DNA of 64,000 bases from Enterococcus wangshanyuanii (lineage in GTDB: Bacteria; Bacillota; Bacilli; Lactobacillales; Enterococcaceae). The translations under genes and the position numbers were made by a program. Positions 25,319 through 64,000 of this stretch are shown here, piece by piece; within the stretch, counting starts at the first letter, position 1, and each line of letters begins with the position of its first letter. The stretch lies in assembly GCF_002197645.1 (NCBI RefSeq), contig NZ_CP021874.1, forward strand, positions 3,162,001 through 3,226,000. Reading direction: 5' to 3'. The notes under the pieces were generated by a model. It made no database searches, was not told the DNA's origin, and was given only the letters and a program-made list of their open reading frames with translations.

Positions 25319-25343
25319 TTCTCGTTCTATGGAGGAACGGGAA
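25319..25343 (+). repeat. Cassette 1 left inverted crossover-like site
   Basis: Left arm 25319-25327, spacer TATGGAG 25328-25334, right arm 25335-25343. The arms are themselves an imperfect palindrome, as expected for two recombinase monomers binding head to head. Confidence 0.8.
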
Positions 25344-25546
25344 ATGTTGTTGGTGAAAAATTAAAATAATATTTTTTTCGAAGATTCTCTTTTTATTTAT
25401 AATCGCAATCCTAAATTTATAATTATTAATATCTCAAAAAAGATAAAATTTTGGTAGCAAAATCATTATAACTCATTTTTAAAAGGAAAACTTATCAATT
25501 TTTTTGATTATATTTAAAAAAATTGAGAAAAAATTGTTTAATTTTA

Positions 25547-25565
25547 GCCGTCAATATAGCCGTCA
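25547..25565 (+). repeat. Cassette 1 left arm-type direct repeats (GCCGTCA x2)
   Basis: GCCGTCA occurs at 25547-25553 and 25559-25565, a 12-bp period, 28 bases before the integrase ATG. The integrase has a Tn916-Int-like N-terminal domain that in relatives binds such arm repeats; binding here is inferred. Confidence 0.7.
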
Positions 25566-25592
25566 ATAATTTTGTAGAGAGGAAGATCAGCT

Positions 25593-26693
25593 ATGGCTAG
25601 AAAGGGAGAAAATATATATAAAAGAAAAGATGGACGATGGGAGGGACGATATATAAAAGGTCGCCGAGCAGATGGTTCAATCTATTATGGTTACATCTAT
25701 GCTAATAACTATAAAGAAGTTAAAAAGAAATTGGTCATCAAAAAAGCTAGTATATTCTCAAATACCAATACCACCGAGCGATTTTATGGAACGGTCAACA
25801 ATTGGCTAGATTATTGGTTGGAATCAGTAGCTGTCTTCAATGTAAAACCTAGTACCTTCGATAGCTATAAGAGTAAAATCGATTGCCATATTCGCCCGGC
25901 TCTTGGAGATATCCATTTAAGCGAGCTAACATCCACTAAAATCGAAAACTTCATAAATAGTACAAAAGAAAAAATCTCAATTAATTCACTGCATGCTGTT
26001 TTCAGAGTTTTAAAAACCGCACTGAAGTATGCAGAAAAGCTTAACTTTGTTCAAAGGTCCTTATATGAGAATATCCAGTTACCTAAAGTTAAAAAACCGA
26101 AGATCGTTACTATTACAAGAACTGAGCATAAACGCTTAGTAAAGGAAGCAAAAAAATCACCAGAAGGATTATCTGTTCTTCTTTCTTTAGAAACAGGGAT
26201 GAGAATTGGAGAAATTTCAGGATTAAAATGGAAAGATATCGATTTTGAGAATCAAACAATTTCAGTTCAAAGAACATTGCAACGAGTGGGAACTCTTTCA
26301 GAGGGAAAATTCAGGACGCATATTATAGAAGAAAAACCAAAATCAGAGACATCAGAACGGATCATTCCGCTTTCCACAGCATTAGTTAAACGTCTACAAA
26401 GAGCAAAAAATCAAAGTAAAAGTGTTTATGTAATCTCTAAGGGAGAAAAATTTGTTGAGCCTCGTACGATTCGTTATCAATTCAAACGGTTACTGGAATC
26501 ATTAAAATTACCAAAATGTTCTTTCCACGCCTTACGACATTCATTTGCGACTCGTTGTTTAGAAAAAGGTGTAAATATAGCAGTTATCAGTTCCTTGATG
26601 GGACACGCTTCTACAAAAATGACATTAGATATCTACACAAATTCGAATCTGAATGAAGAACGTTTAGCAGTTGAATCAGTCACCTGTGTGTAG
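25593..26693 (+). CDS. Tyrosine recombinase/integrase 1
   Basis: The 366-residue phage-type integrase has an N-terminal AP2-like arm-binding domain (GENIYKRKDGRWEGRYIKGR, residues 4-23), a SAM-like core-binding domain (about 65-165) and a catalytic domain. Catalytic residues fit: Arg in LETGMRIGEISGL, His-x-x-Arg in FHALRHSFATR, His in MGHASTKM and Tyr in LDIYTN. It is paralogous to the integrase at 61.5 kb across its whole length. No excisionase or phage genes are adjacent. Position between inverted crossover-like sites suggests an invertase rather than a phage integrase. GAGAGGAAG precedes the ATG. Confidence 0.92.
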   Translation: MARKGENIYKRKDGRWEGRYIKGRRADGSIYYGYIYANNYKEVKKKLVIKKASIFSNTNTTERFYGTVNNWLDYWLESVAVFNVKPSTFDSYKSKIDCHIRPALGDIHLSELTSTKIENFINSTKEKISINSLHAVFRVLKTALKYAEKLNFVQRSLYENIQLPKVKKPKIVTITRTEHKRLVKEAKKSPEGLSVLLSLETGMRIGEISGLKWKDIDFENQTISVQRTLQRVGTLSEGKFRTHIIEEKPKSETSERIIPLSTALVKRLQRAKNQSKSVYVISKGEKFVEPRTIRYQFKRLLESLKLPKCSFHALRHSFATRCLEKGVNIAVISSLMGHASTKMTLDIYTNSNLNEERLAVESVTCV

Positions 26694-26711
26694 TATAAAA
26701 ATTTCAAATTC

Positions 26712-26730
26712 GCCGTCACAATCGCCGTCA
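26712..26730 (+). repeat. Cassette 1 right arm-type direct repeats (GCCGTCA x2)
   Basis: GCCGTCA occurs at 26712-26718 and 26724-26730, again with a 12-bp period, 18 bases after the integrase stop. It is in the same orientation as the left pair. Confidence 0.7.
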
Positions 26731-26773
26731 CCTAAATAAATAAGCCTTGCTATATCAATCTTTTTATGAGGAT

Positions 26774-26798
26774 CTCTTGTTCCTCCATAGAACGAGAA
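26774..26798 (-). repeat. Cassette 1 right inverted crossover-like site
   Basis: Left arm 26774-26782, spacer CTCCATA 26783-26789, right arm 26790-26798. Read on the minus strand it begins with the same 20 bases as the left site. It lies 190 bases before the WxL-locus regulator. Between them, GCAAACAGAC occurs twice (26903-26912, 26921-26930) with an 18-bp period. Confidence 0.8.
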
Positions 26799-26987: not shown

Positions 26988-27689
26988 ATGTTTAACATAG
27001 CACTAGTCAATCATAAAAAGATTGGTGATTCGCGATACATAGAGGTTTTGAAGGAAAAGCAATGTGATGTGCATTACTTAGAGTCTGATGAACTAGATCA
27101 AAGAATAAATACTATGGATGCGGTGATTATTAAGGAGTCTTCTTTAGAAGAAATTGGTGAAACATGCGAGCTGATCATTAAGATTAGAAGTTTGACCGAT
27201 CGTTTCATTTGGATTCTTTCAGAAGCTTCTACAAAAATCAATCGAATCGTCTATTTACAATTAGGCTCTGACGGAACATTTGATGATCAGGTCGATCCTG
27301 ATGAATTTGGTATCTACGTAGGGACGACATTGGAGAGAAGAACAAAAAGGGTTGAACCTGTAAAAGAAGTAGAGCCGCAAGCTAACAAAATCGAAGAATT
27401 AGCACCTATCGAACTTGTACCTAACAACTTTTCTGTCAATGTGGAAAAGAAAGGTGAAGTCAGCTTGACTAAATTGGAATTTCAGGCAATGGAGATTTTA
27501 GTTAGACGCCAAGGAGATGCCGTTTCTTATGAAGAAATGTATCAGGCGATTTGGGGAGATGAAAAAGGTGATCGCAAGTATCGCATTTCTAATCTAGTCT
27601 TCCATCTTAGAAAAAAACTTGGGGACGATCCATTTAAACCTAAGTATATCCGAACTGTTCGCTCAAGAGGTTACATGTTGTCTATGTAA
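26988..27689 (+). CDS. Winged-helix regulator of the WxL locus (orphan OmpR-like)
   Basis: The 233-residue protein has a C-terminal OmpR/PhoB winged helix (VSLTKLEFQAMEILVRR ... RKYRISNLVFHLRKKLGDD ... YIRTVRSRGYML, about 140-233). The N-terminal 115 residues look like a degenerate receiver: strand-helix order is present, but the DAVIIKE strand lacks the phosphoacceptor Asp. No kinase gene is near. It is the first gene after cassette 1 and precedes the surface operon, so it is the probable local activator. AAGGAGG precedes ATG 26988; a TTG 30 bases upstream is ignored. Confidence 0.83.
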   Translation: MFNIALVNHKKIGDSRYIEVLKEKQCDVHYLESDELDQRINTMDAVIIKESSLEEIGETCELIIKIRSLTDRFIWILSEASTKINRIVYLQLGSDGTFDDQVDPDEFGIYVGTTLERRTKRVEPVKEVEPQANKIEELAPIELVPNNFSVNVEKKGEVSLTKLEFQAMEILVRRQGDAVSYEEMYQAIWGDEKGDRKYRISNLVFHLRKKLGDDPFKPKYIRTVRSRGYMLSM

Positions 27690-59315: not shown

Positions 59316-60737
<1,422 letters not shown>

Positions 60738-60747
60738 GATAAAGAAT

Positions 60748-60796
60748 AAAAATAGACACTTTCACTGATTCAATCAGTAAAAGTGTCTATTTTTAT
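60748..60796 (+). terminator. Intrinsic terminator of the beta-glucoside operon
   Basis: AAAAATAGACACTTT pairs with AAAGTGTCTATTTTT, with an inner ACTG/CAGT stem. Confidence 0.92.
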
Positions 60797-61107
60797 CCAG
60801 TTGTATGTCGGTAGTATTTGTTTTTTTGTAAAAAATAAAATGGAAAGATAGTTAAGAATACGGTACCATAAAAATGACGACACATAAAAATTGGAAAGTA
60901 TTAAAATTGCGTATTTATAAAATAGGGAGAGTGATAGAAAAAAATAGTTGGTATAAGCGAGTCTATAAAGTTATTGATATAGTTGTAAAAAAGATGGAAT
61001 ATACTCTAAACAAGGGGAGTAATTTAATTATCTGCTAAAGAATAGAAAAGACATGAAAAAGGGAAAGAATAATAAATTAAAGTAGGTGAGATTTTTAAAG
61101 TAAAAAT

Positions 61108-61132
61108 TTCTTGTTCTTTGTAGGAACAAGAA
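61108..61132 (+). repeat. Cassette 2 left inverted crossover-like site
   Basis: Arms 61108-61116 and 61124-61132 are perfect inverted repeats; the spacer TTTGTAG is 61117-61123. Confidence 0.8.
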
Positions 61133-61201
61133 ATGGAAATTAAAATTTGATGAATAAAAAATGTTGGTTTTAGAAACAGCTTTATTCATTCAACACCTAG
61201 T

Positions 61202-61231
61202 ATTGTACTATTTAAGTATAGATACTGTCAA
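61202..61231 (-). promoter_or_regulatory. Strong promoter facing out of cassette 2 (leftward)
   Basis: On the minus strand TTGACA (61231-61226), 18-base spacer, TACAAT (61207-61202). In the orientation given it points at the left site and the end of the beta-glucoside operon, where no gene follows on that strand. After inversion it would read across the right site into the surface-protein gene. Confidence 0.75.
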
Positions 61232-61453
61232 TAGGTATTGCTGTAATTGGTTTTATAAAAATAGTCTTGATCTTTTATGTTATTAAAAAAACGTTCATAA
61301 TGTTATTCTGCGACTCATATAGAATAATGAAAATATGCATCTATTTGCATTTTGACGACTTATGAATGAAAAATTCTCCCCTGAAAAATTGGGAATGTGT
61401 ATAGATAGCTTTAAGAATACCGCTAAATTAAGGTTTAGTTAATGTTTTTCAAA

Positions 61454-61472
61454 GCCGTCAAATGCGCCGTCA
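61454..61472 (+). repeat. Cassette 2 left arm-type direct repeats (GCCGTCA x2)
   Basis: GCCGTCA at 61454-61460 and 61466-61472, 12-bp period, 30 bases before the integrase ATG, mirroring cassette 1. Confidence 0.7.
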
Positions 61473-61502
61473 CGAATTGGAAAATGAAAGAGGGATTTTA
61501 GA

Positions 61503-62594
61503 ATGGCTAAAAGAGGGGAAAATATATATAAAAGAAAAGATGGACGCTGGGAAGGAAGATATATTAAAGAAAGAAAGGTCGATGGGAAAATCCGCTATGG
61601 ATATATTTATTCTAGAAAATATGTAGATGTTAAAAAAAAGTTAATGCTCATAAAAGCTGAAACTTTAAAGTCTGATATCTTGCAAATCACATATGATGGT
61701 ACATTAGGTGATTGGCTGAAGTTTTGGCTAGAAACTATTGTAAAGCCTAGGGTTAAACTAAGTACGTACAATGGCTATAAGAGCAAAGTACAATTACACA
61801 TCTTACCCAAGTTAGGAACAATTCTTCTGCGAGAGTTGCTACCTGCTGATATTGATCAATGGTTATTACAACTAAATACACAACTTTCTTCGAGTTCTGT
61901 GCATGCTGTCCACAGAGTATTGAAAAATGCTCTAACTCAAGCTCTGAAACAGGAAATAATAAGTAAAAATCCAACACTCATGATTGAGTTGCCTAAGTTA
62001 GAAAAGCAAAGAGTCAAGGCTTTTTCAAAGCAACAACAGAAAATGATCAAAGCGGCAATAGTAAAAGAAGAAAGATACCTACCTATCCTTATTGCGCTAG
62101 AAACAGGAATGCGTATTGGTGAAATCAGTGCACTACAATGGACGGATATTAATTTTTCTGAAAAGACGATCCATATTCAACGAACGTTGCAACGTTTGCA
62201 AATTGGTGTAGGAAAAACGGCTTTAGTTGAAGGAACACCAAAAACTTTTCAATCAGAAAGGATTTTACCACTATCAAACCAACTGAAAGAATACTTAATA
62301 GAAGTGAAAAAGACATCACATAGTCCATATGTTGTTGGCATAAAAGATTCATGTACTGAACCAAGGACGATTACTTATCGCTTCAAAAAGTTACAAGAGG
62401 AACTTCAAATTACTCCTTTGCCATTCCATTCCTTGCGTCATACTTTTGCTACCCGGTGTTTGGAACTAGGAGTAAACATTGCTACGATAAGTTCAATACT
62501 TGGACATACCTCTACAAAAATGACTTTGGATGTCTATACGAGCTCATTTATGCAAGATGAGCGTAAAGCTATGGAAAAAATAGCAGCAATTTAA
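61503..62594 (+). CDS. Tyrosine recombinase/integrase 2
   Basis: The 363-residue integrase is paralogous to the one at 25.6 kb. The N-terminal arm-binding domain starts GENIYKRKDGRWEGRYIKER. The core-binding domain is at about 65-165. The catalytic domain has Arg in LETGMRIGEISAL, His-x-x-Arg in FHSLRHTFATR, His in LGHTSTKM and Tyr in LDVYTS. It lies alone between inverted crossover-like sites, with no excisionase or phage gene. GAGGGATTTTAG precedes the ATG. Divergence of the two integrases outside the motifs suggests separate specialisation for their own sites. Confidence 0.92.
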   Translation: MAKRGENIYKRKDGRWEGRYIKERKVDGKIRYGYIYSRKYVDVKKKLMLIKAETLKSDILQITYDGTLGDWLKFWLETIVKPRVKLSTYNGYKSKVQLHILPKLGTILLRELLPADIDQWLLQLNTQLSSSSVHAVHRVLKNALTQALKQEIISKNPTLMIELPKLEKQRVKAFSKQQQKMIKAAIVKEERYLPILIALETGMRIGEISALQWTDINFSEKTIHIQRTLQRLQIGVGKTALVEGTPKTFQSERILPLSNQLKEYLIEVKKTSHSPYVVGIKDSCTEPRTITYRFKKLQEELQITPLPFHSLRHTFATRCLELGVNIATISSILGHTSTKMTLDVYTSSFMQDERKAMEKIAAI

Positions 62595-62602
62595 TGAATA
62601 AT

Positions 62603-62652
62603 AAATGTTGAGGACACCTCTAATCCAGGTACATTCTCAACATTTTTTTGTT
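62603..62652 (+). terminator. Terminator of integrase 2, inside cassette 2
   Basis: AAATGTTGAG (62603-62612) pairs with CTCAACATTT (62636-62645), then a T-run. It stops integrase transcripts before the right site, so integrase read-through should not reach the surface gene in this orientation. Confidence 0.85.
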
Positions 62653-62669
62653 CTAAGCGTTATTTTATA

Positions 62670-62688
62670 CCCGTCAACTAAGCCGTCA
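62670..62688 (+). repeat. Cassette 2 right arm-type direct repeats
   Basis: CCCGTCA at 62670-62676 and GCCGTCA at 62682-62688, 12-bp period, in the same orientation as the left pair. Confidence 0.68.
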
Positions 62689-62729
62689 TGGATTGAATAA
62701 AGCACAAAGAGCAAGCTAAAAAAACTTCT

Positions 62730-62754
62730 TTCTTGTTCCTACAAAAAAGAAGAA
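62730..62754 (-). repeat. Cassette 2 right inverted crossover-like site
   Basis: Left arm 62730-62738, spacer CTACAAA 62739-62745, right arm 62746-62754. It lies 143 bases before the surface-protein ATG. Between 62755 and 62897 I see -10-like TATTAT but no matching -35. Confidence 0.8.
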
Positions 62755-62897
62755 ATGAAAAACGAACTGGATACGTCCTGATCTATTTATGTTCTGTACT
62801 TTATTATATGGATTTTTTTGGTCGTGTCCATTATTTTACTTTGAGTGGATACTAATTGATTTTGGTATTTAAAAAAATATTTTGGAGGTATTGGTTA

Positions 62898-64000
62898 ATG
62901 AAGAGCAACAAGAATTTCAGAAAAGACGATTTAAGTCCTGAAAGCAACACAAAAAAAATCTACAAGATGTACAAGAGAAAAAAACAATGGGTAGTAGCAC
63001 CGGTTGTATTAGGATTATTACTTAATGCATTGAGTCCAGCTGCAGCTTTAGCTGTAACTGATTCAGAGCAGACGGATGCTGTGACAGCACAAGCAAGAGC
63101 TGTGGATAATGAGCTTTTAGAATTAATTGAACAGGCAACTACAAATATCAATGCATTAGTTTCACTAACTTCAGAAGCAAAAGCAACGTATGTAGCAGCA
63201 GTGCAGGAATCAGATACGAAAGAAAAAGTTGAAGAACAGTTATTGAACGCATATAAAGAAGATGTTGCAGAAGCTTTAAAAGCTGTAGACACTTTTTATG
63301 TTAGTAAAATTGATGGTCTAACTTCATTATCGACAGACCAAAAAGAAGCTGCCAAAAATGCTATTAGTGCAGCGTTAGCATTTGACTCATTAAAAAATGC
63401 TTTCAATGCAATGAGTGATTCAACAACATACAGTACTTTTAAAGCAGCATTTGATAAACAACTAGCTAAAAACAAAGAAGCTGCTGATATTTTGGTAAAA
63501 GAGAATGTCGAACTAGATGCTGCACTTGCAGATCTTCCAAAATATAAAGCAGAGCAAAAAGCTGTGATCAATGGCTTGAGTCAATTCCAAGAAATTGAAA
63601 AGCAAAATCTTTATATAGAAATTGACAAAGCCGCAGATAAAAGTGCGATTGATGGGATTATAACTGATGCAAAAGCTGAAAATAAAACAAGATTAGCAAC
63701 TGCGGTGGCAGCTAAGGTGGCTGAATTGAAAGTTGAAACAGCTAAACTAGCTGAGTTGAATTCATCAAAACAAACTGAACTTAATGCAAAAATCGATGAA
63801 GTAGCAGGATCCAATGACGATGCTGCATTAGCTAAATTAAATACTTTAGCGGGCGAGATTGAACAAGCGATTGCAGAAGCAACGGCGAATGATGAATTAG
63901 CTAAATTGAATGCAGCAAAATCTGAACTTAAAGCTAAAATTGCAAATGATAAAGCGGAAAACCAACAGATTACAGATGCCGATGTAAGTGCATTTAATAG
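62898..64000 (+). CDS. Large surface protein with GA-like helical modules, 5' part
   Basis: The frame is open from ATG 62898 to the end of the window (367 codons), so the 3' end is missing. The long signal peptide has a KxYKxGKxW-type motif (KMYKRKKQW, with Lys for Gly) and a hydrophobic core to about AALA. It then shows at least three three-helix modules similar to GA albumin-binding modules (NINALVSLTSEAKATYV; KIDGLTSLSTDQKEAAK; VINGLSQFQEIEKQNL). After these, Ala/Lys/Glu-rich helical repeats (KLAELNSSKQTELNAKI) continue to the end. It is probably wall-anchored at its unseen C-terminus. GGAGG lies before the ATG. Its promoter is probably supplied by cassette 2. Confidence 0.85.
   Translation, partial: MKSNKNFRKDDLSPESNTKKIYKMYKRKKQWVVAPVVLGLLLNALSPAAALAVTDSEQTDAVTAQARAVDNELLELIEQATTNINALVSLTSEAKATYVAAVQESDTKEKVEEQLLNAYKEDVAEALKAVDTFYVSKIDGLTSLSTDQKEAAKNAISAALAFDSLKNAFNAMSDSTTYSTFKAAFDKQLAKNKEAADILVKENVELDAALADLPKYKAEQKAVINGLSQFQEIEKQNLYIEIDKAADKSAIDGIITDAKAENKTRLATAVAAKVAELKVETAKLAELNSSKQTELNAKIDEVAGSNDDAALAKLNTLAGEIEQAIAEATANDELAKLNAAKSELKAKIANDKAENQQITDADVSAFN

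Follow-up and report, generated by a model that had tools for sequence, protein, structure and literature searches.

A putative self-encoded invertible promoter element before a surface-protein gene of Enterococcus wangshanyuanii and the family of integrase cassettes to which it belongs

Introduction

What does a single tyrosine integrase gene do when it lies between inverted sites, directly in front of the gene for a large surface protein? The question was raised by one locus of Enterococcus wangshanyuanii (contig NZ_CP021874.1), found in a window of 64,000 nucleotides, the window being the whole stretch of DNA that was analysed. A first-pass annotation had read this locus, referred to here as cassette 2, as a minimal module for phase variation whose recombinase travels along with the DNA that it flips. 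Our analysis of the sites, the integrase and their relatives indicates that cassette 2 is probably a self-encoded invertible promoter element.

Results

Layout of cassette 2

The features of the locus are as follows.

60746-60796, no strand: near-perfect hairpin (inverted repeat I2) behind a beta-glucosidase-like gene, terminator-like on the minus strand
61108-61132, no strand: left core site, TTCTTGTTC-TTTGTAG-GAACAAGAA, with perfect 9-bp arms
61202-61231, minus strand: outward sigma-70-like promoter, TTGACA-18-TACAAT, divergent from the integrase and facing away from the surface gene
61454-61472, plus strand: left arm-type pair, GCCGTCA twice, 12 bp apart
61503-62594, plus strand: tyrosine integrase, 363 aa, with R204, K247, H309, R312, H335 and Y345
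62600-62655, plus strand: hairpin and T-run 3' of the integrase, a possible terminator (inverted repeat I8)
62670-62688, plus strand: right arm-type pair, in the orientation of the left pair, 12 bp apart
62730-62754, no strand: right core site, reading TTCTTCTTT-TTTGTAG-GAACAAGAA when reverse-complemented
62898-64000, plus strand: target, the start of a 1098-aa surface protein with a KxYKxGKxW signal, GA modules and ChW repeats, running past the window

The inverted 25-bp sites that had been reported around the integrase gene were located at exactly these positions. The two cores matched at 23 of 25 positions, and both carried the asymmetric 7-bp spacer TTTGTAG in opposite orientation, as the first-pass annotation had described. 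Their inner half-sites were identical and the outer arm of the right core (TTCTTCTTT) differed from the left outer arm at two positions, which agrees with the earlier description of perfect 9-bp arms on the left, one of them kept on the right. No non-overlapping open reading frame (ORF) of at least 60 aa besides the integrase was found in the segment, consistent with the reported lack of phage and conjugation genes, and the sites ended at 62754, directly before the start of the surface-protein gene at 62898, again as claimed. Beyond that earlier description, the analysis added the arm-type repeats, the outward promoter and the membership of cassette 2 in a large cassette family.

The CCGTCA repeat pairs inside both ends of cassette 2 all pointed one way. 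Cassette 2 is thus not a bare core-site system, and the arm-type repeats give it the look of a phage or ICE integrase system. In the present orientation the outward promoter would read into the hairpin at 60746-60796. The hairpin and T-run at 62600-62655 were found as an inverted repeat and were not called by the terminator scan. When the window was searched for the site pattern with up to three mismatches, four matches were obtained, compared with a mean of 0.06 in shuffled sequences, and two of the four were the ends of a second cassette.

25319-26798, plus strand: cassette 1, with cores at 25319-25343 and 26774-26798 and its integrase from 25593
25547-25565 and 26712-26730: arms of cassette 1

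Behind cassette 1 lay the gene of a winged-helix regulator (at 26988) and, after it, WxL genes.

A family of cassettes in the genus

The genome itself carried eight integrases at least 43% identical to that of cassette 2 (cassette 2 included and one locus present twice) and nine distant ones. Seven of the eight, corresponding to six loci, were flanked by inverted sites, each with arms and a spacer of its own. All 22 genomes searched within the genus carried 6-13 family integrases (E 1e-60), 194 copies altogether with the one own locus counted twice. The tested set of 108 comprised the eight own copies and 100 of the 186 copies in other genomes, these 100 coming from 17 genomes (18 in total with the own one) and being picked from the matches listed and mostly from the less broken assemblies. 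Inverted 25-mers agreeing at 21 or more of 25 positions within 700 bp were present in 84 of the 108, compared with 12 among 1500 mismatched pairs of family loci; chance inverted repeats were rejected on this comparison. Direct 25-mers at the same threshold occurred in 25 of the 108, which was expected because the core arms are palindromic. The counts on 84 elements given below leave out the 24 copies without paired sites at this threshold (15 of a fixed lineage and nine others), and, like all family counts here, they pool related elements that are not independent. Three of the nine other siteless copies (L207, L256 and L261) had arm repeats on both sides.

Two of the nine distant integrases of the own genome (L009 and L010) served as a control; their best inverted pairs reached 18 and 19 of 25, and no CCGTCA was found within 400 bp of either. 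A copy on an E. gilvus plasmid also had no paired sites (19 of 25). In a wider scan, paired inverted sites were found at 59 of the 80 best loci, Clostridia included. Of 246 genomes sampled from the order, 15 gave a match at E 1e-70, and nine of these were Enterococcus. Among 33 viral loci 20 were tested, of which three were too short, and sites were present in three of the remaining 17.

Spacers and arm repeats

The left and right spacers of the 84 elements agreed at 588 of 588 positions, whereas the core arms differed at 85 of 1512, and this contrast was unchanged when the sites were centred on the palindrome alone. Since the elements had been picked by overall similarity of the 25-mers, it is the contrast between spacers and arms that counts and not the low total of differences. 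Fifteen genomes had at least two tested elements, and within each of them the spacers were distinct from one another, the one exception being the own locus that was assembled twice. The motif CCGTCA occurred on the left side of 83 elements and on the right side of 80, and 79 of the 84 had it at both ends, compared with 0.010 (left) and 0.017 (right) per element in shuffled sequences. Of the four orthologs of cassette 2, L172, L182 and L228 had the left core of the window, and L246 had the spacer TTTGAAG. The right outer arm was identical in the window and all four orthologs, and it differed from the left outer arm. A tendency of the target-side outer arm to avoid a hairpin in the ON transcript was not significant across the 84 elements (lower in 20, higher in 10, equal in 54; p=0.06).

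Promoter and target genes

An outward promoter with a score of at least 9.5 was found at the integrase-5' end in 75 of the 84 elements, compared with 12 on the opposite strand of the same segment and two at the right end; the mean score was 9.74, against 8.70 in shuffled sequences. The outward promoter of cassette 2, a consensus match, was conserved in L172 and L182, the two orthologs aligned, and it is flanked by inverted sites as in an inverton. Promoter-like matches within 60700-62960 were not in excess (seven, against 10.4 in shuffles), so that what supports this promoter is where it lies, how it is conserved and the statistics of the family. Cassette 2 in the window is predicted, from its letters, to be OFF, because the minus-strand promoter at 61231-61202 is directed away from the surface gene. 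The stretch between the right core and the target showed no promoter enrichment (8.60, against 8.63 in shuffles; n=73 of 84), and 16 of these 73 target leaders held a promoter match of their own scoring at least 9.5. A separate promoter-like match (11 of 12 positions; 62830-62803, minus strand) lay between cassette 2 and the surface gene and pointed away from the gene.

The surface-protein target was present in five of the 22 genomes, the same five that carried cassette 2. Just beyond the integrase-3' end, a gene reading away from the element was found in 81 of the 84, and in 69 of the 84 a winged-helix regulator stood there; the regulator that was scanned contained a Trans_reg_C domain. The regulator was on the 5' side in three elements, which were flipped, and another gene was on the 3' side in 12, including that of the window. 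In 30 of the 84 a gene reading away was also found within 500 bp on the 5' side, so that the promoter may serve either side in some elements. A WxL or WxL-interacting gene was found on the target side of at least 33 of the 84 elements and on the other side of none; the 33 are a lower bound since most of the fetched loci reached only about 4 kb. Three small proteins encoded behind two of the genome's own cassettes were scanned with Pfam, and all three had a WxL or WxL-interacting domain.

Several further loci were seen. On E. raffinosus plasmid pCX012922 a cassette (L274; sites matching at 22 of 25) stood before a helix-turn-helix gene and secA2, secY2 and asp1. Plasmid LR962555.1, recorded as E. 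faecalis and typed as mobilizable, carried a cassette (L278) with sites matching at 24 of 25. In a Lachnospiraceae MAG an element (L052) lay between two genes that were similar by eye and both read away from it, an arrangement in which one promoter could alternate between both genes. The clostridial elements L037 and L054 adjoined helicase-like genes (by Pfam for L037, by eye for L054); these genes lay beyond the integrase 3' end in one element and beyond the 5' end in the other.

Inversion of family members

The plainest evidence for inversion came from a paralog that was present in both states within one assembly. The ends of the chromosome contig overlapped directly by about 40 kb at about 99.9% identity, and within the overlap the cassette L017/L018 was reversed between its 25-bp sites. 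The breakpoints fell within the core sites, which in this cassette differed by three mismatches. The overlap is most simply read as an untrimmed circular chromosome. An end overlap that differs by one flipped cassette may explain why the contig was not closed. It might be argued that the two orientations reflect a real duplication or an assembly error instead of a mixed population, as the genome sequence is an assembly. This explanation, which is compatible with a switch in any case, appears improbable: directly overlapping ends of a circular chromosome account for the overlap most simply, and even in a duplicated stretch the flip must have come after the duplication, with its breakpoints in the core sites.

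Flips were also found between species. Flanks were swapped with a change of strand between L192 and L200, and between L206, L212, L253 and L259 on the one hand and L222 on the other. DNA alignment revealed that only the element was reversed in the pairs compared in this way (L192/L200, L206/L222 and L212/L222). In total, 13 of 221 flank-sharing pairs were flagged as swapped, and since all 13 involved L018, L200 or L222 they come down to three flipped loci. The expectation of the first-pass annotation that inverted sites would lead to inversion and not excision was thus borne out for relatives of cassette 2, by the flipped paralog L017/L018 and by two loci flipped between species. Within E. raffinosus, no flip was seen among four megaplasmid records, which shared one orientation at the secA2 locus; a fifth record matched only 42% of the query.

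For cassette 2 itself a single orientation was observed. The inverted allele of 61108-62754 that the first-pass annotation had suggested looking for in related assemblies did not turn up; the four orthologs had the orientation of the window, so that both states were observed for the same-genome paralog and not for cassette 2, whose own inversion we infer. The single orientation, together with the changed outer arm that the window shares with all four orthologs, keeps a rival explanation alive, namely that cassette 2 descends from an active family but has itself become locked, perhaps through decay of one outer half-site. We regard this as unlikely, though worth keeping in view. The integrase, spacer, arms and promoter were conserved, and L017/L018 flipped despite three mismatches between its sites. 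Moreover, the gene on the 3' side in 81 of the 84 elements shows that the orientation of cassette 2 is the usual one in the family and is not by itself a sign of locking.

Integrase protein

The frame of the cassette 2 integrase was open, all six catalytic positions were present, and the protein matched PF00589 (Phage_integrase). The catalytic R-K-H-R-H-Y set was kept in 108 of 108 family integrases, which identifies them as tyrosine recombinases; with its PF00589 match the integrase does not belong to the Hin-type serine recombinases. It was not of the FimB/FimE type either, scoring 24.5 bits with NCBIfam NF007371, which we take to be the FimB/FimE-like model, against a curated cut-off of 222.

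The integrase also matched phage integrase families (phrog_1, the match starting at residue 8), and the solved chains that scored best against it were the Int proteins 6emy, 6en0 and 6emz, which are presumably the Tn1549 integrase. Both matches would fit a prophage remnant or a minimal integrative element in which the terminal sites were left behind by integration and have no role in switching. We consider such a remnant highly improbable. The sites are inverted and not direct, 81 of the 84 elements were no longer than 1.7 kb, and 82 of the 84 had no complete ORF of at least 60 aa outside the integrase. The paralog in both orientations within one assembly and the regular placement of outward-reading genes and regulators beyond the 3' end also argue against it. 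A prophage or ICE remnant was rejected on the inverted sites, the usual absence of another ORF and the two orientations of the paralog. Mobile integrases of the IntTn916 type are carried by phages, ICEs or transposons that have direct attachment sites; cassette 2 does not show this layout, since its sites are inverted and no other non-overlapping ORF of at least 60 aa was found in it.

In 195 pairs of paralogs from the same genome, the first 40 residues were 74% identical, compared with 39% for residues 65-165 (core-binding) and 55% for residues 170-350 (catalytic). Taken together with the spacers and arms, this pattern agrees with an arm motif that is shared and core sites that are private. 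The N-terminus may be an arm-binding domain, a candidacy suggested by its conservation, by the arm repeats and by the phrog_1 match from residue 8. No arm-domain match was found in Pfam among 24 family members, and a PDB sequence search with the integrase N-terminus gave no credible match.

A fixed lineage without sites

Fifteen family copies, one per genome in 15 of the 18 genomes, had no paired cores (best 18-20 of 25), and 14 of the 15 were without CCGTCA within 400 bp. All catalytic residues were kept. The copies were 86% identical to one another and formed one clade inside the family (100/100). An upstream gene was common to them, and the same GTPase gene, presumably ychF judging from the N-terminus of its product, lay downstream in 13 of the 15. 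The member of the own genome is the following.

2451102-2452196 of the own genome: fixed-lineage member L013, with relatives such as L173 and L189 (14 in all)

These integrases may work on different sites or serve some other function.

Discussion

The following mechanism is proposed for cassette 2. Its own integrase would bind the repeats inside both ends as arm sites and would recombine the inverted cores across the 7-bp spacer, so that the 1.6-kb segment flips with the integrase gene included. In the present orientation the promoter at the integrase 5' end would point left into the hairpin (OFF); after inversion it would lie about 0.24 kb upstream of the start codon of the surface protein and read into the gene (ON), so that promoter orientation would set the expression of the surface gene. 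All DNA expected to be bound by the integrase, except the two outer half-sites, sits inside the segment. Since the bound DNA would move with the segment, both states would be nearly the same substrate, and a separate directionality (excision) factor would not be needed. The earlier claim of a phase-variation module with a travelling recombinase is supported by the flipped paralog, the flips between species and the outward promoter in most of the elements.

For the family as a whole, the results point, with somewhat less confidence than for cassette 2, to a genus-wide class of switches built from phage/ICE-type integrases with arm sites. Its 6-13 copies per genome would mostly be mutually insulated ON/OFF modules with private 7-bp spacers and an arm motif in common, and each would govern a different surface operon. 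With the arms and inner half-sites inside, the two states would be equivalent and no directionality factor would be required. One lineage would have lost its sites once and become fixed at one chromosomal place, possibly with a role in trans or one other than recombination. If this is true, several independent self-contained switches may set surface display, and the cells of one clone may differ in their combinations of surface proteins. The private spacers with one arm motif would also provide a natural test of the control of direction by arm sites, and a kit of orthogonal inversion tools.

Small inversions have been described as nearly absent from Bacilli, with a single signature among 22 samples (18 unique species), in the passage of PMC5903667 that deals with them. 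Against this stand the 22 of 22 genomes with 6-13 integrases and the 84 of 108 tested copies in switch-like cassettes. Among open-licence papers no description of a system of the cassette type was found. A survey of invertons in a single gut community linked tyrosine integrases to invertons of Clostridia (an excerpt of PMC11892184), and these may or may not belong to the cassette family.

Among the known systems, cassette 2 resembles Hin in that the recombinase and an outward promoter, which the Hin segment carries as well, lie within the invertible segment. According to passages of the respective papers, the Hin gene is inside its invertible segment (PMC5903667) and Hin is a serine recombinase (PMC8987985). 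The cassettes differ from Hin in their tyrosine integrase, their arm-type repeats, their several copies per genome and their private spacers. With RecV of C. difficile, FimB/FimE and Rin of bifidophages they share a tyrosine recombinase, inverted sites and mostly surface functions. The Fim recombinase genes lie outside their switch. RecV acts on several switches, as stated in part of PMC5903667, and neither Rin (in the portion of PMC6109161 that describes it) nor Rci (likewise in PMC8138268) has an arm-type domain.

PsrA/CreX of Streptococcus pneumoniae, from the same order, is also a tyrosine recombinase that makes DNA inversions; unlike the cassettes, it rearranges hsdS genes, as far as the excerpts describing it go. 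The PsrA/CreX recombinase is not known to be carried together with an outward promoter. The phage and ICE integrases of the IntTn916 subgroup are similar in their Int proteins as the best-scoring solved chains, in the extra N-terminal part and in the arm-type repeats, but the cassette integrase would invert its own segment and not integrate. In a section of PMC8138268, an arm-binding domain is said to predict strongly that an integrase belongs to a mobile phage or ICE. If the N-terminus of the cassette integrases is such a domain, the cassettes would run counter to the rule drawn there that an arm-binding integrase marks a mobile element, and switches of this kind may be misread as prophage integrases.
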